From: Heliocidaris erythrogramma
Taxonomy: Eukaryota; Echinodermata; Echinoidea; Camarodonta; Echinometridae
Assembly (NCBI GenBank): GCA_025617745.1
Contig: CM046870.1
Location: 29,097,927-29,161,926 of the forward strand
Length of the DNA stretch: 64,000 bases
Direction: 5' to 3'
Shown: positions 2,565-64,000 of the stretch, piece after piece
Layout: each line of letters opens with the position of its first letter
How positions within the stretch are numbered: position 1 is the first letter of the stretch
Notes under the pieces: generated by a model
Databases searched by the model: none
What the model saw: the letters and a program-made list of their open reading frames with translations, nothing else
What the model was told of the DNA's origin: nothing
Translations under genes and position numbers: made by a program

Positions 2565-3880
2565 TGGTTTCAAGCTGATTTTGCCATTTTTGTAACACGA
2601 AGGCTTAAAATCGGCACAAGCTTTATGTTCCAATTTAGAAGATAAGGCTATTCGGAACTTCATTCAGAAATAGTCCAATTTCAGTCTTGCGTAGATGGAT
2701 CGTAACTGACATAAATTACCTTTCACAATTTGGTCAAAGCGGCTTAAGCTTTCATTACAACCTGATTTAAAAAGTATGTGTCAACAGCACTTTTGTACAA
2801 GTTGATGGAGAATTGTGAGGACAATCATGTGATCAAATCATGTGATCAAAGGCTGTCGGATAAATAGAAATATATGTAATTTTCATTCCAGTTTACGTGC
2901 CTAGAACATATTGACTTACCTCTGAGTCTGTAGAATTTTGTTGGAAGTACTACTTCACAGAATTATCTCGTTAGACACGCAGGCTTCTCGGCAGAAAAAA
3001 GTTCACACATGGTTCAAATTGACAAGAACATGACCTTACCGAATTCCATGGGGGATGATCTGAGAAGACCAAAGCAATTTTGCAGGTTAAAAGTATGCAT
3101 TGACACATTTATTGGTCCATATTGAGTGAAATATGACCTTATGACATCCCAGGGAGGACCAAAAAAACTTTGGAGATTGAAAGTAGGCATTGACTGATTT
3201 ATTATTATCCCTTGCCAGTACCCTTGTTTGAGGAATCTACACATGGTTTTTATTTTCTGGAATTCCTCACCCTTTGTGTCAACACTAAGGGCGTTATGTA
3301 CTGTTAATACACGGTTGAACTACCCCGTAAAACAGTTGCATTTCATCATTGGCTGTAATTGTAAGCTTTAATAGTATTAATGTTATTTTCATACTTTTTC
3401 ATCTTTGTTTTTGCTATTTTTTCATTAAGGCAATATAAACAGGCAATGTTATCATCTTGAACTGCCTGTTTTTTAATGTCAAAATGTATGACTACACATT
3501 ATGTTAATATCTGAAACACATCTTTATGAAAGAGAAAGCATTTTTGAGAATGCATTGAATGTAATATATGTGAAAGCACACTCGGGTACATCCAGAACAC
3601 ATGTTATATTAATATGTTATATTAATATGTATAGTATGAAATATTTTTTTTTGAAGAAAAATATACTCAGAGAGTGAGCCCTGTTGTGTTACCCACAATT
3701 TGCATGACTGTGCTTTGACAAATGCCTCAGGCTCAGTTAGTACAACCTCATAGCCCATTTCAAATGGATGCAGACTAAGCAGACATATCATATTGATTAT
3801 GTGGCACTTTCTGCCCAGGGACTTTCCCCGAGGTATAGGTTCTCTGTGTGTAACTTGGATAACAAGTGATATTAATATGA
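2565..3880. other. No gene seen
   Basis: AT-rich DNA. A short internal duplication (GACCAAAGCAATTTTGCAG near 3068 and a related stretch near 3160) is visible. The open frames on the minus strand around 3014-3244 and 3609-3920 lack domains or splice logic and are treated as chance. Confidence 0.4.
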
Positions 3881-4654: not shown

Positions 4655-4940
4655 CAGTGGCGTATCCAGGGGGGGGGGGGCGCAACAGGCGCGCGCCCCC
4701 CCCCCCCCCCCCCTATTGGTCGTCGTAAAAAAAAAAAAACTAGCCAAAAAAAAAAAAAAAAATCCTCATACCAATTGAAAATATTGTTCATTAAATAGGC
4801 TTCAAAATTGGTCACATATAGCACTATTTTGCATCTCAGCCCTTCTTCAGAAGCAAAAATTTTCCAAAGACCCATCCCCCATGACGGCGATCAATAATTC
4901 CTGGCGCCCCCCCTATTGGGAAATCCTGGATACGCCCCTG
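4655..4940. mobile_element. MITE with CAGTGGCGTATCCAGG ends
   Basis: CAGTGGCGTATCCAGG at 4655 is matched by CCTGGATACGCCCCTG ending at 4940, so the element has inverted termini. The interior has long G, C and A runs (4671-4760) and no coding potential. CAGTGGCG-type termini are frequent on hAT- or P-like elements in invertebrates; the superfamily is inferred. A related end, on the minus strand, is visible near 45380-45445. Confidence 0.6.
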
Positions 4941-59185: not shown

Positions 59186-59920
59186 TCGAAGAGAAATTTT
59201 GATATTATGTTCACATACCCTCAAATATTGTGTACATTTTACAATATCATATTTTCAGTTCCGTTCATTTATTTGATTCCATCTCATTAAAAACACTTTT
59301 TACATTAATAAACACATGCAATTCCACATTAAAATTACACAATTGGAATGGACTACAAACCAGAATAAGGTACAGCTGGTAATAAACCAGAATAGGTTTG
59401 GTCTAGACAGCTAGCTAAGTAATTTCGAATGTAATAAATACACATTAGAAACAAGAGCCAAGTAAAGTCTTGGGTAGTATCATGATATAATAAATGCACC
59501 GAATACGGCGCAGATCCTATACACACAAGGATACAAAAAAAAAAAATAAGGATAGCAAAGGAGAAATTAAGGAGGAGAAGAAGAATGGGGAGGGAGAGAA
59601 AGAAAGAGAGAGAGGGTTTGACACATACATTCAATGAGCGTCAGGTGTGATCACGAACTTTTTGAGCTTATGTTTAAAAAAGGACGTTGTAAAATGAAAT
59701 TCGAGTTAGGTCAGAGGGAAGCGAGTTCCATATCACAGGAGCATGTTAGATTTTCATCTAGCATTTCACGTAGATAATGAATAAAAGGAGTCCAATCTTT
59801 AAATTATGTAGACATGACCTATGCAATATTTGGACCAAAATTTAGGCGCAAGAAATATTTCATGATCTTTGAAGGTTTGCATGGTGGAGCTTATAACGTG
59901 GAGAAGGTTTACAGTTCACC

Positions 59921-60487
59921 ATGTGTGTTGGTTGGTACCACTCCTTCCACCACCCATCCATCCACCAGTCGGTACCCAACTCCCTTATCAGACGCGCATA
60001 CCAACTCAGTGACAAGGACCATCTTCAACAAGAACTCACTCACATCACCAATGCACTCACCTCCATCAACCAATACCCTAGGAAGAAGATCTCCACCCAC
60101 CGACCTCATCACCAACCCACAGACGCCGCCACCAACGACCAATCCACCGGAAACCAACCCACCACAGTTGTTCTCCCGTACCTCGGCAAAACATCCCACC
60201 AACTACACCGCATACTTACTCAGGCCAACTTCAAAGTCCGACACCGATCCTCCAAGAAACTTCACTCCATCTTGCACTCACACAAGGACAAGACCCCTAC
60301 CAACAAACAACCCGGTGTATACAAGATTCCCTGCGACTGCGGCAAAGTCTACATCGGAGAGACAGGACGAGACTTCAACACAAGACTTAAGGAACACAAG
60401 GCCTGCCACCGACTTAGCGACTGGGACAAATCTGCAATAGTCAAACACGCACAAGAAGAAGATCACCACATCGACTGGGCACTCTAA
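59921..60487 (+). CDS. GIY-YIG endonuclease region of the Penelope-like element
   Basis: An open frame of 188 codons. It has a linker with KKISTHRPHH, then LPYLGKTSHQLHRILTQANF, a Cys-containing zinc-knuckle-like GVYKIPCDCGKVYIGETGR (from 60314) and LKEHKACHRLSDWDKSAIVK plus HAQEEDHHIDW. GVY..(6-10)..VYIGETGR..(F/L)..R..EH is the GIY-YIG core of Penelope-like elements. The frame stops at TAA just after HIDWAL, and the expected continuation (ITNIKHWHTRRVREAIEI) lies one frame over. So the ORF is broken by a one-base change near 60483. Confidence 0.85.
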   Translation: MCVGWYHSFHHPSIHQSVPNSLIRRAYQLSDKDHLQQELTHITNALTSINQYPRKKISTHRPHHQPTDAATNDQSTGNQPTTVVLPYLGKTSHQLHRILTQANFKVRHRSSKKLHSILHSHKDKTPTNKQPGVYKIPCDCGKVYIGETGRDFNTRLKEHKACHRLSDWDKSAIVKHAQEEDHHIDWAL

Positions 60488-61026
60488 TCACCAACATCAA
60501 GCACTGGCACACCAGACGAGTGAGGGAGGCCATCGAGATTCAACGCCACGACACAGTACCACAGGACACAGGACTTCATCTCAACCACATCTGGCACCCA
60601 ATCCTTCATAGGGGCACCAACCAACACCAAACCCAATCCACACAACCAGCACCACTGACAACTCAATCCACTGAATCGTCGCCCACCAAACCCACCGACT
60701 CACAGCCCACTCAACCCGCCGACCAGCCGACCATCCAGCACGCCGAACCGCCGACTACCAACGCACCCCCGACACCACAGCTCGCCGTCCCACCTACTCA
60801 AACCCGGTACAATCTCCGCCCTCGACCAGCAAACACACAAAGGACTTCACGCCGCCAGCCCCCCGCTACCAATCCATCCGACGTCCGCACTCGCGTCCAC
60901 TCAACTCTCGGACATAATAGCGCCACCACCGACAGCAACCCGCCCACACCACCGGCCGCCGATTCCTCCGACGTCCGCACAGACTCCATAAAACCCCGCC
61001 GCTCGTCTAGCACACTTCACTCCTGA
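60484..61026 (+). pseudogene. Frameshifted C-terminal part of the Penelope ORF, Pro/Thr-rich tail
   Basis: In the shifted frame the protein continues WHTRRVREAIEIQRHDTVPQ and LHLNHIWHPILH, the usual end of the endonuclease region. A long Pro/Thr/Gln-rich tail follows, with RYNLRPRPANTQRTSRR-type basic motif, and a stop (TGA 61024-61026). CpG and GC are much higher than in the flanking host DNA. Confidence 0.8.
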
Positions 61027-61062
61027 TGACGGACAGTCAACCTGTCCGAAACGTCGAGTAAC
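61016..61062 (+). ncRNA. Hammerhead-ribozyme-like motif of the Penelope-like element
   Basis: CTGATGA (61023-61029), a 6-bp helix II (GGACAG 61031-61036 with CTGTCC 61042-61047, loop TCAAC), GAAAC (61048-61052) and a GTC cleavage triplet (61053-61055) occur in canonical order. Helix I can start with ACTC (61019-61022) and GAGT (61056-61059). Helix III would be only AC/GU, the minimal type described for Penelope hammerheads, which act as dimers. One departure: an extra C (61030) between the CUGAUGA box and helix II. Confidence 0.6.
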
Positions 61063-62156
61063 CTCCTACTCAAGCCTCATCTACTCAAACCTTCGCTACT
61101 CAATCCATCGCTGCTCATCCATCGATCAACCAAGTCTTCTCATCTCATCTCATCTGGTCTACAGTCCTTTTCAGGACTTCACCCATTGTCACGAAAGAAT
61201 ATTTCTTCTTTTCTCTCTTGTCATACTTTCTCGTCTATCCATTTCTAATTTCCTTTTCCCTTTCCTCCTACCAACACACATGGTGAACCATAAACCTTCT
61301 CCACGTTAAGAAATATTTCAGTTTGAATTTTCCCTTGCATCCCGCATTTTTAGAGCGATGAAAAAAAATATTGCTCTCTTTAAAAAAAGAGGGAAGCGAG
61401 TTCCATATCACAGGAGCATGATGTTAGATTTTCATCTAGCAGAGTTGTACAATCATTTCACATAGATAATGAATAAAAGGAGTCCAATCTTTAAATTATG
61501 TGGACATGACCTATGCAATATTTGGACCAAAATTTAGGCACAAGAAATATTTCAGTTTGAATTTTCCCTTGCATCCCGCATTTTTAGAGCGATGAAAAAA
61601 AATATTGCTCTCGTTAAAAAAAGAGGGAAGCGAGTTCCATATCACAGGAGCATGATGTTAGATTTTCATCTAGCAGAGTTGTACTATCATTTCACGTAGA
61701 TAATGAATAAAAGGAGTCCAATCTTTAAACTATGTGGACATGACCTATGCAATATTTGGACCAAAATTTAGGCACAAGAAATATTTCAGTTTGAAGTTTC
61801 CCTTGCATCCTGCATTTTTAGAGCGATGAGAAAAAAATATTGCTCTCGTTCAAAATGTTGTAATTTTATTTTCTTATGAATCAGAATGTTTTATTCAATT
61901 TAAATACAATATATTTTATTTTGAAGCAGGATAGTCTGTGACTGGGCGGGTAACCGTCTTGAGTTGTGCTGAATTTTAGGTGAATGGAAATGTACATTTT
62001 TGGGTGGTGACGATATATCGCCATATCAGCGATACTGAAGCTGACGATTATCGAATAACCCAAAGTGCGATATCGTGCAGCCCTAACTTCATGTGAACTT
62101 TCAAATAAATTTGTAGAAATATTCACAAAGGGAGCCACATGTCAAAATAATGTAAA

Positions 62157-64000
62157 CTAGATGAATATTCGACCGCGCGCGGTCGGAATTTATGCCTCCG
62201 CCATCACCAGATCGGAAATGTATGGCATACATGTACACTCTAAAAAGGATTGGTCCAACAAAATTACAAATCATTTCACTTAAAATACACAGGAGACAAA
62301 AATTTATTTCATTTCATTTTCAAACGAGGCTAAAAACCAGTAATGTCATGTAATTTCATGTAAATTGACCTCTGTGGCCTCTGACCTTTGACCTACTTAC
62401 ACCAAAATCTAATCAGTTCATCTTTCTATGGGGATACATACTGGTACCAAGTTTGAAGTTCTTAACTCAAACAGTTCTTGAGATATCGTGGTAACGGTGC
62501 TAAAAACCAAGAATTTCATGTAATTTCATGTAAATTGACCTCTGTGACCTCTGACCTTTGACCTACTTACCCCAAAATCTAATCAGCTCATCTTCGTATG
62601 GGGATACATACTAGTAACAAGTATGAAGTTCTTACCTAAAACAGTTTTTGAGATATCGCAGTAACGGTGCTAAAAACCAAGAATTTCATGTAATTTCATG
62701 TAAATTGACCTCTGTGACCTCTGACCTTTGACCTACTTACCCCAAAATCTAATCAGTTCATCTTCGTATGGGGATACATACTAGTACCAAGTTTGAAGTT
62801 CTTACCTCAAACAGTTCTTGAGATATCGCGGTAACGGTGCTAAAAACCAAGAATTTCATGTAATTTCATGTAAATTGACCTCTGTGGCCTCTGACCTTTG
62901 ACCTACTTACCCCAAAATCTAATCAGCTCATCTTCCAGGCATGATAGTGGCCTACCAAAAAAAAATCTACATTTCCGGGGTCCCCTGGAACCCCTGCACT
63001 TTTGCTCTTTCATGAGCACATTTAAAGGTGTCTAGAAGGCCTTTTTTTTGGAAATTTTTATATAACTGTAAAGGCAAATCACTGGGTAGTTTCCAACTTA
63101 CATTAGGTTGGATGGCTTAGATCCCTTTATCCCTTTTCCTGACACGTGCACGTACGTACATGTACGATGTAAATCCACATGATGATAGAGCAAGTACAAA
63201 ACAGCTGAGCCGCGTGCCTGGGCAGGCGGCAGCCGCTGACCTGGGCTGAATATATAGCGTCGCGAGTAAACAAACGCATGCTGTTCCGCTTACGTTTATG
63301 TTACGTTGCTATTGATAAAATTCGGCCAAAATAAAATCTACCCCAGTCACCACCTTGCTTCATGTACACGTGCGCACCACACCATGCAATGCTACACAAA
63401 ACGAATCACTTGCAGGCGAGCCAGCACAAAAAAACAACGCTTACCATACAGGTACAACCGACATACGAATCGCCCCAAATCTCATATCAACCACAAATTA
63501 TTCGACCACAACAAAATCGGTTTTTTAAAACAGGATCGTTTATTACAATCTGGGAAAAATGCCCAAAAATCGAGATCATTGTCAGGAAAAGAAAAAAAAT
63601 CGGAATTCCGATTTAAATCGGAAGAATATCATGCCTGATCTTCGTATGGGGATACGTACTAGTACCAAGTTTGAAGTTCTTAACTCAAACAGTTCTTGAG
63701 ATATCGCAGTAACGGTGCTAAAAACCAAGAATTTCATGTAATTTCATGTAAATTGACCTCTGTGACCTCTGACCTTTGACCTACTTACCCCAAAATCTAA
63801 TCAGCTCATCTTCGTATGGGGATACATACTAGTAACAAGTATGAAGTTCTTACCTCAAACAGTTCTTGAGATATCGCAGTAACGGTGCTAAAAACCAAGA
63901 ATTTCATGTAATTTCATGTAAATTGACCTCTGTGACCTCTGACCTTTGACCTACTTACCCCAAAATCTAATCAGTTCATCTTCGTATGGGGATACATACT
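62157..64000 (-). repeat. Dispersed repeat family A, copy 4, with a 170-bp tandem array (runs off the window)
   Basis: The element starts (in reverse) at the perfect palindrome CGACCGCGCGCGGTCG (62170-62185) and GGAATTTATGCCTCCGCC. The 170-bp unit marker TGCTAAAAACCA occurs at 62498, 62668, 62838, 63716 and 63886. Steps are 170 bases except one of 878, where an insertion sits. Each unit carries TGACCTCTGTG.CCTCTGACC followed by TTTGACCTA. The left end of the family (CCGT tract) is not reached. Confidence 0.9.
62936..63637. mobile_element. 702-bp transposon with CAGGCATGATA ends and 6-bp target duplication
   Basis: CAGGCATGATA (62936) and TATCATGCCTG (ending 63637) are inverted. ATCTTC flanks both sides. 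The marker spacing across it is 878 = 170 + 702 + 6, proving a 702-bp insertion with a 6-base duplication. Inside, CpG is raised at 63190-63290, and a plus-strand frame 63306-63638 has no recognisable domain. The superfamily is not identified. Confidence 0.85.

Follow-up and report, generated by a model that had tools for sequence, protein, structure and literature searches.

Does the hammerhead-like sequence at the end of an open reading frame (ORF) in this sea urchin locus belong to a genuine ribozyme, what kind of element carries it, and do genomic copies of that element bear traces of its cleavage? These questions were addressed in the window, the 64,000-nucleotide stretch of Heliocidaris erythrogramma DNA analysed here (contig CM046870.1, positions 29,097,927 to 29,161,926), in which an initial annotation had placed a hammerhead core beside the ORF of a Penelope-like element (PLE). 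We find that the hammerhead motif at 61019-61059 on the forward (+) strand is real and stands where that annotation had put it. With a probability of roughly 85%, we take it to be the hammerhead of a Penelope-like retrotransposon pLTR, present here in a broken, 5'-truncated copy and with a proposed mechanism that would involve dimers.

Structure of the motif

The motif (61019-61059, +) is a hammerhead of the minimal type I, or PLE-type, form, as judged from its core, its count in the genome, the covariation of its helices and an independent covariance model. Read 5' to 3' on the + strand, it consists of the 5' strand of helix I, ACTC (61019-61022), which pairs with GAGT at 61056-61059; the core CTGATGA (61023-61029); one extra core base, C (61030); helix II (61031-61047), formed by GGACAG (61031-61036) and CTGTCC (61042-61047) around the loop TCAAC (61037-61041); and a final segment (61048-61055) made up of GAA (61048-61050), ACGT (61051-61054) and C61055. 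Within this last segment, GAAAC occupies 61048-61052 and the cleavage triplet GTC occupies 61053-61055. Each element that had been described initially, namely CTGATGA, a 6-bp helix II, GAAAC, GTC and an ACTC/GAGT helix I, was found in its place. The accompanying statement that the motif lies just after the ORF holds in so far as the motif adjoins the end of the ORF, but the two in fact overlap, as the ORF stop codon TGA (61024-61026) lies inside CTGATGA.

The order required of a hammerhead core, C3U4G5A6 N7 G8A9 followed by G12A13A14, is present in the window, as are the A15.1-U16.1 pair (A61051 and U61054) and an NUH triplet before the cut (GUC, 61053-61055). Two properties of the classical type I hammerhead are absent: (i) a monomeric helix III with a closing loop, in place of which there is only ACGT (61051-61054), a loop-less, self-complementary helix III of 2 bp, and (ii) a core free of additional bases, C61030 being inserted. 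The sequence properties of the PLE-type minimal hammerhead, in comparison, were found: type I order, a minimal helix III, location in a PLE pLTR, and tandem copies, the last of these at another locus of the genome (L042), the window copy holding a single motif; cleavage as a dimer is predicted. These features suggest that the window ribozyme is a new member of this already known kind. Two such ACGT segments could pair with each other in a dimer, and the cut is predicted to fall between C61055 and G61056; positions are numbered below relative to this cut, with G61056 as +1, C61055 as 0 and A61019 as -36. In the lowest-energy monomer fold that was predicted, base pairs join the core GAUG to CGUC and the extra C to the G of GAAA, and unconstrained folding of either the monomer or two strands did not show the active hammerhead fold. 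Such a competing monomer fold would fit the need for a partner or a protein.

A broken and truncated Penelope-like element carries the motif

The insert that carries the motif is a 5'-truncated PLE copy of 1445 bp (59863-61307, +), housed in a host tandem repeat with a unit of 234 bp. It is bounded by a 13-bp target duplication, AAGAAATATTTCA, with its left copy at 59850-59862 and its right copy at 61308-61320, and this 13-bp target sequence is single in the host repeats without an insert (61542 and 61776). The insert opens with an inverted 5' arm (59863-59935, -), which is a piece of the 3' terminus of the same element together with a tail, and continues with the C-terminal portion of the PLE ORF (59936-61026, +). 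This portion is split between two frames, one ORF (59921-60487) carrying the GIY-YIG match and the other spanning 60520-61026. The part of the pLTR that lies 3' of the predicted cut extends over 61056-61307 (+). The tail forms the 31 outer bases of the inverted arm (59863-59893, -) and is missing at 61307. These 31 bases were considered as filler, a reading that was rejected, as other copies show the tail as well; its bases directly follow the 3' terminus in, for example, L036, L040 and L042, and in L042 the pLTR continues via the tail to where the next ORF begins.

The GIY-YIG match in the window ORF reaches 21.6 bits, just below the cut-off of 22.6, and the reading frame shifts between 60487 and 60520, so that the window copy is broken as well as truncated. 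The region that was lost from the window by truncation contains an RVT_1 domain in longer copies (L042, E=5.8e-11; L041, E=1.3e-11), for which no GIY-YIG match was listed at E up to 0.01, and a PDB search with one L042 frame returned a single weak match, to an RNA-directed DNA polymerase (E=0.0059). The PLE carrier that had been proposed at the outset is borne out by the RVT_1 matches in these two longer copies together with the pLTR, the tailed inverted arm and the target duplication, all of which are hallmarks of PLEs. The small, non-coding unit of an animal retrozyme was not found, the unit here bearing a PLE ORF. In the one tandem locus examined, L042, two motifs occupy the same strand at a distance of 3,140 nt, separated by the RVT_1-bearing ORF.

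Two further arrangements of the element were observed in passing. At L041 (3189-7466), head-to-head element arms of about 2,062 bp are 99.8% identical and have their 3' ends outward, a geometry and identity that look like a single recent insertion event. Elsewhere in the host genome, three pLTR probe sites lie on one strand at a spacing of 105 bp (C3:24521281-24521513), which suggests that part of the pLTR may have turned into a small tandem array.

Genome count, covariation and conservation

Within the window by itself, matches to a loose hammerhead pattern do not significantly exceed chance: 19 were counted against a shuffle mean of 11.7, and 14 of 100 shuffles reach 19. Across the host genome (1.064 Gb in 26 contigs), the core pattern CTGATGAN{8,30}GAAACGTC gave 769 matches (401+368) versus 15 (8+7) for the reversed control, and the matches listed group into subfamilies with differing helix II sequences. 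Covariation was counted in 16 distinct, hand-picked sequences from the same genome, with identical or near-identical copies excluded along with those whose helix II was broken or of another length (L021, L023, L024, L026, L028, L030, L031, L032, L049 and others); an alignment containing some of the excluded copies (A1) was not used for this count. Helices I and II covary in this set: 87.5% of 176 cells are standard pairs, the cells being a tally of sequences and not of evolutionary events, and no more than 44.3% were paired when the structures were slid by 1-3 columns. Changes on both sides of a pair fill 21 cells in 4 of the 11 pairs, against a shuffled mean of 8.8 and with 0 of 500 shuffles reaching 21. 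Three of the five measures in this test lie above all 500 shuffles, and the measures "pairs with double change" and "pair types" lie within them (282 and 355 of 500, respectively, reach the observed values).

When nine copies of other subfamilies (alignment A3, in which one copy, L028, is gapped in helix II) were used to build a covariance model, the window motif scored 42.3 bits, with E=3.4e-10 as a rough value from a short calibration, and the runner-up place in the window had E=0.12. Another model, R1, matches the window copy by construction because it includes that copy; it assigned only E=2.8 to L026, a copy of a distant subfamily, and L024 was absent from its list. Rfam listed no hammerhead in the window, either at the gathering score or at E up to 10. 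This silence is weak evidence because phage hammerheads whose helices I and III are complete escaped Rfam as well: it was silent at gathering on seven IMG/VR hammerhead contigs and, at E up to 5, on six of the seven. The initial annotation had proposed a search with a hammerhead covariance model; Rfam yields no such match, the model from other subfamilies does, and the hammerhead reading of that annotation is supported by this independent model and by the covariation of the helices.

The motif is also better conserved than its surroundings. Compared with the window, and with gaps scored as differences, seven members of a related subfamily are 93-100% identical at 61019-61058, 25-69% at 61059-61154 and 57-83% at 61155-61306, and seven copies of distant subfamilies are 75-82% identical in the motif and 33-73% and 57-71% in the two flanks, although the conservation of the motif is partly by construction because the search that retrieved the copies required CTGATGA and GAAACGTC, presetting 15 of the first 40 positions compared.

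An extra base after CTGATGA

The base C61030 had been singled out initially as a departure from the consensus that might lower or abolish activity. It does depart from the classical core, but it is a trait of the family and not a defect of the window copy. In a scan that permitted 0, 1 or 2 additional bases, exactly one extra base follows CTGATGA in 47 of 47 rows from the same genome whose helix II is 4 bp or longer (these rows represent 42 distinct places, since five were fetched twice; the other 12 of the 59 own-genome rows have a helix II of <4 bp); this base is mostly C, and T and A also occur. An extra T is found at that site in seven IMG/VR contigs and one Paenibacillus contig. Damage to the window copy was therefore rejected as the source of the extra C, all 47 rows and these eight phage or bacterial hammerheads having such a base, and we regard it as a natural variant because it is common to the other copies examined and to the eight hammerheads.

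The latter (L009-L015 and L075, a Paenibacillus zanthoxyli contig) are type I hammerheads in phage-like or bacterial contigs with one T after CTGATGA; their helix III is extended, their helix I covaries (CCCGC/GCGGG, CCCGT/ACGGG), and Rfam is silent on the IMG/VR members. A helix I of 4-5 bp behind the extended helix III is present in 8 of 8, of which L009, L010 and L012 are close relatives and L009 has a helix II of only 2 bp without a gap. We rejected the idea that the phage and bacterial relatives are of the same minimal type, as helix III is extended in those whose helix I is good; L076, from a Tannerella MAG, has neither of the two. A second group of IMG/VR hammerheads (L077, L078, L079, L081, L082 and L085-L087) has a helix III of the type ACGTC-loop-GACGT, and the extra base occurs in one of its eight members, L079.

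A viroid hammerhead with an extra nucleotide is reportedly active, with its insertion at the same place. The viroid hammerhead has a full helix III. It differs from the present case in belonging to a viroid RNA and resembles it, to go by the title of the paper, in having one extra core nucleotide (de la Pena and Flores 2001). Natural core insertions elsewhere, after A6 and near C3, reduce activity (PMC3088659).

Predicted transcript start

A TATA-like CATAAAA (60987-60993, +), whose first T lies 30 nt upstream of A61019, and an initiator-like TCACTC that contains A61019 (61017-61022, +) would together form a promoter from which the transcript starts at A61019 (+), a base that also belongs to helix I. 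The distance of 30 nt is the spacing of a TATA box to an initiator. If transcription does start at A61019, the 5' strand of helix I would be the very 5' end of the RNA and the ribozyme would open the transcript, a place that would account for a helix I of just four pairs.

Several short copies begin near this predicted start: L037 (both arms at -36), L047 (-38 and -31), L043 and L044 (-32), L008 and L046 (-35), L053 and L054 (-39, possibly one event), and likewise L055, a copy of the related subfamily. Others begin elsewhere (L002 at -52, L040 at -48, L050 at -103, plus longer copies), and none of those copies can begin inside the motif because they were found via an intact CTGATGA. At the head-to-head junction of L037 (around 4691-4727), a CATCAGGAGT-type stretch is repeated several times, and the repeats look as if an RNA 5' end near -36 had been copied over and over.

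Comparison with known systems

Known PLE hammerheads (Cervera and de la Pena 2014; Lunse, Weinberg and Breaker 2017) are of minimal type I and lie in the pLTR (PMC6155905, PMC7761336), and the window motif is like them in its type I order, its lack of a real helix III and its pLTR location. The reviews describe PLE hammerheads as having no helix III, as possibly cutting as dimers and as being of unknown role (PMC6155905, PMC7761336); the dimer idea put forward in the initial annotation agrees with them, with cleavage here being predicted.

Poseidon of Anolis carolinensis (PAc, PMC11167929) likewise combines a tandem pLTR-ORF-pLTR arrangement with a hammerhead, and its tail is explained by an internal start of reverse transcription. 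The PAc ORF begins at stem II, whereas the next ORF in L042 begins about 280 nt past the cut, and, unlike in PAc, the stop of the preceding ORF sits in the hammerhead core. Ribozyme mutants of PAc left in vitro insertion unchanged, cleavage by the PAc ribozyme required protein, and the RNA-seq presented there had no ends at the cut; the authors also state that self-cleavage of a PLE hammerhead was seen earlier at 3-25 mM Mg2+ (PMC11167929). The Penelope of Adineta vaga (PMC3846280) shares with the present element an inverted pLTR, a target duplication, a TATA box with a TCACT initiator, and an optional 31-bp tail on one inverted pLTR that matches the tail found here. Its TATA-initiator spacing is 20 bp, versus 30 nt here, and the main text does not contain the word hammerhead. 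Animal retrozymes (PMC7229834) also place type I hammerheads in animal mobile elements, but they are small non-coding repeats, whereas the carrier here is a coding PLE.

Genomic 5' ends at the predicted cut site

Genomes with hundreds of copies record RNA 5' ends, and such ends were mapped with a probe (beginning at +120 in L042) that has 815 places in the genome at no more than one mismatch (control, 0). From the listed C1 and C2 places without an intact listed motif, 19 short stretches (L056-L074) were sampled as arms. One of them, L056, begins exactly at +1, and in L069 one arm runs from +1 and the other from +4. Other arms end at +7 (L068), at -30 and +37 (L072), at +34 and +87 (L065), at +39 (L070) and at +59 (L071), with approximate ends between about +46 and +58 in L062 and at about -26 in L063, where three bases are visible upstream. 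L058 and L060 were rejected as 5' ends, as they have internal deletions instead; the element runs to the edge of the stretch in L057, L059, L061, L066, L067 and L074, and no clear match was found upstream of the probe in L064 and L073. We rejected the idea that copies start mainly at the cut site, given that the resolved ends of ribozyme-lacking arms are scattered between about -30 and +87; +1 is the end of a minority of the sampled ribozyme-lacking arms.

Genome-wide, +1 to +20 is intact with a base other than C before it at 46 places (A 24, T 13, G 9; control 0), compared with 9 places at a control boundary, where +4 to +23 is intact with a base other than G before it (C 4, A 3, T 2; control 0). 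The difference between 46 and 9 corresponds to p=4e-7, and that between 33 and 9, without the T class, to p=3e-4, both values assuming independent insertions and an equal background at the two boundaries, of which only the former involves a base in a CpG (C61055). At three of the nine control-boundary places, the arm lies opposite an arm of the +1 class and directly adjoins it. Six arms are seen or forced to lack an upstream ribozyme: L056, the partner in L069 (C2:12070746) and four others. C1:7658203 and C1:7658230 are facing arms with 6 nt between their matches and hence are forced to be without one, and C8:48196779 and C12:10391935 each abut an opposite arm. The junctions of L069, C8 and C12 are alike and may be duplicates of one event. 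Beyond these six arms, a share of the 46 places may be point mutants and not true 5' ends, the point-mutant class at the cut having GAAACGT directly before a base other than C and GAGTAACCTCCTAC.

In our judgment, the evidence is evenly balanced on whether the hammerhead cuts in vivo and its product serves as a template for retrotransposition, such that one class of PLE copies begins right after the cut, beside another that begins at the transcript 5' end. We consider it doubtful, if deserving of real weight, that the +1 excess reflects base substitution at C61055, which lies in a CpG, or a stop of reverse transcriptase at the folded motif. A T precedes +1 at 13 of the 46 places, as expected from CpG decay; against this, A (24) outnumbers both T (13) and G (9), six arms are seen or forced to be without an upstream ribozyme, and a reverse transcriptase halted by helix I would be expected to end near +5. 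If cleavage in vivo is the correct reading, 5' ends at the cut would be a functional footprint for a ribozyme whose role in PLEs is called a mystery, and, if copies do pile up at the cut site, in vivo cleavage would be readable from assemblies, species by species and without an RNA experiment. Our literature search returned no report of genomic 5' ends at a hammerhead cut, which is not proof, as the primary papers on PLE hammerheads were outside its reach.

The same surplus of candidate 5' ends at the predicted cleavage position speaks against regarding the motif as a relic, kept through descent and copy number and cutting in no copy now, as do the covariation of helices I and II between subfamilies, the better conservation of the motif than of its flanks, and the earlier PLE hammerhead self-cleavage stated by the PAc authors. 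We therefore consider a relic unlikely, even though the weak helix III, the extra core base and the competing monomer fold would all fit one, as would the ribozyme-independent insertion of PAc in vitro. It is very improbable that the conserved hairpin serves a promoter or the packaging of RNA and merely resembles a hammerhead: the motif does sit at the TATA/initiator pair and the ORF stop, and a protein-binding motif has been hypothesised for PAc within the first 172 nt of the ORF, yet the order of the hammerhead core and the covariation of the helices with GUC speak against such a role.

Proposed mechanism

For the hammerhead as an active part of the PLE, we propose that transcription would start at A61019, placing the ribozyme at the head of the RNA and the cut behind transcript base 37. 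A read-through transcript of a tandem pair would carry two motifs, the two ACGU segments of which could pair to form a dimeric hammerhead, and this dimer would cut each motif after C61055, giving a product with G61056 as its 5' end. The genomic footprints suggest that the RNA may be reverse transcribed in either state, uncut with its 5' end near 61019 or cut with its 5' end at 61056, and reverse transcription would begin internally, where the next ORF starts. The window copy probably does not cut itself in cis because it has just one motif.

Other features of the window

Outside the insert, an RNase MRP RNA was found at 3662-3880 (-), with 56.7 bits against a gathering score of 50. At about 62300-64000, repeated units with CCTCTGACCTTTGACCTACTTAC are visible by eye.
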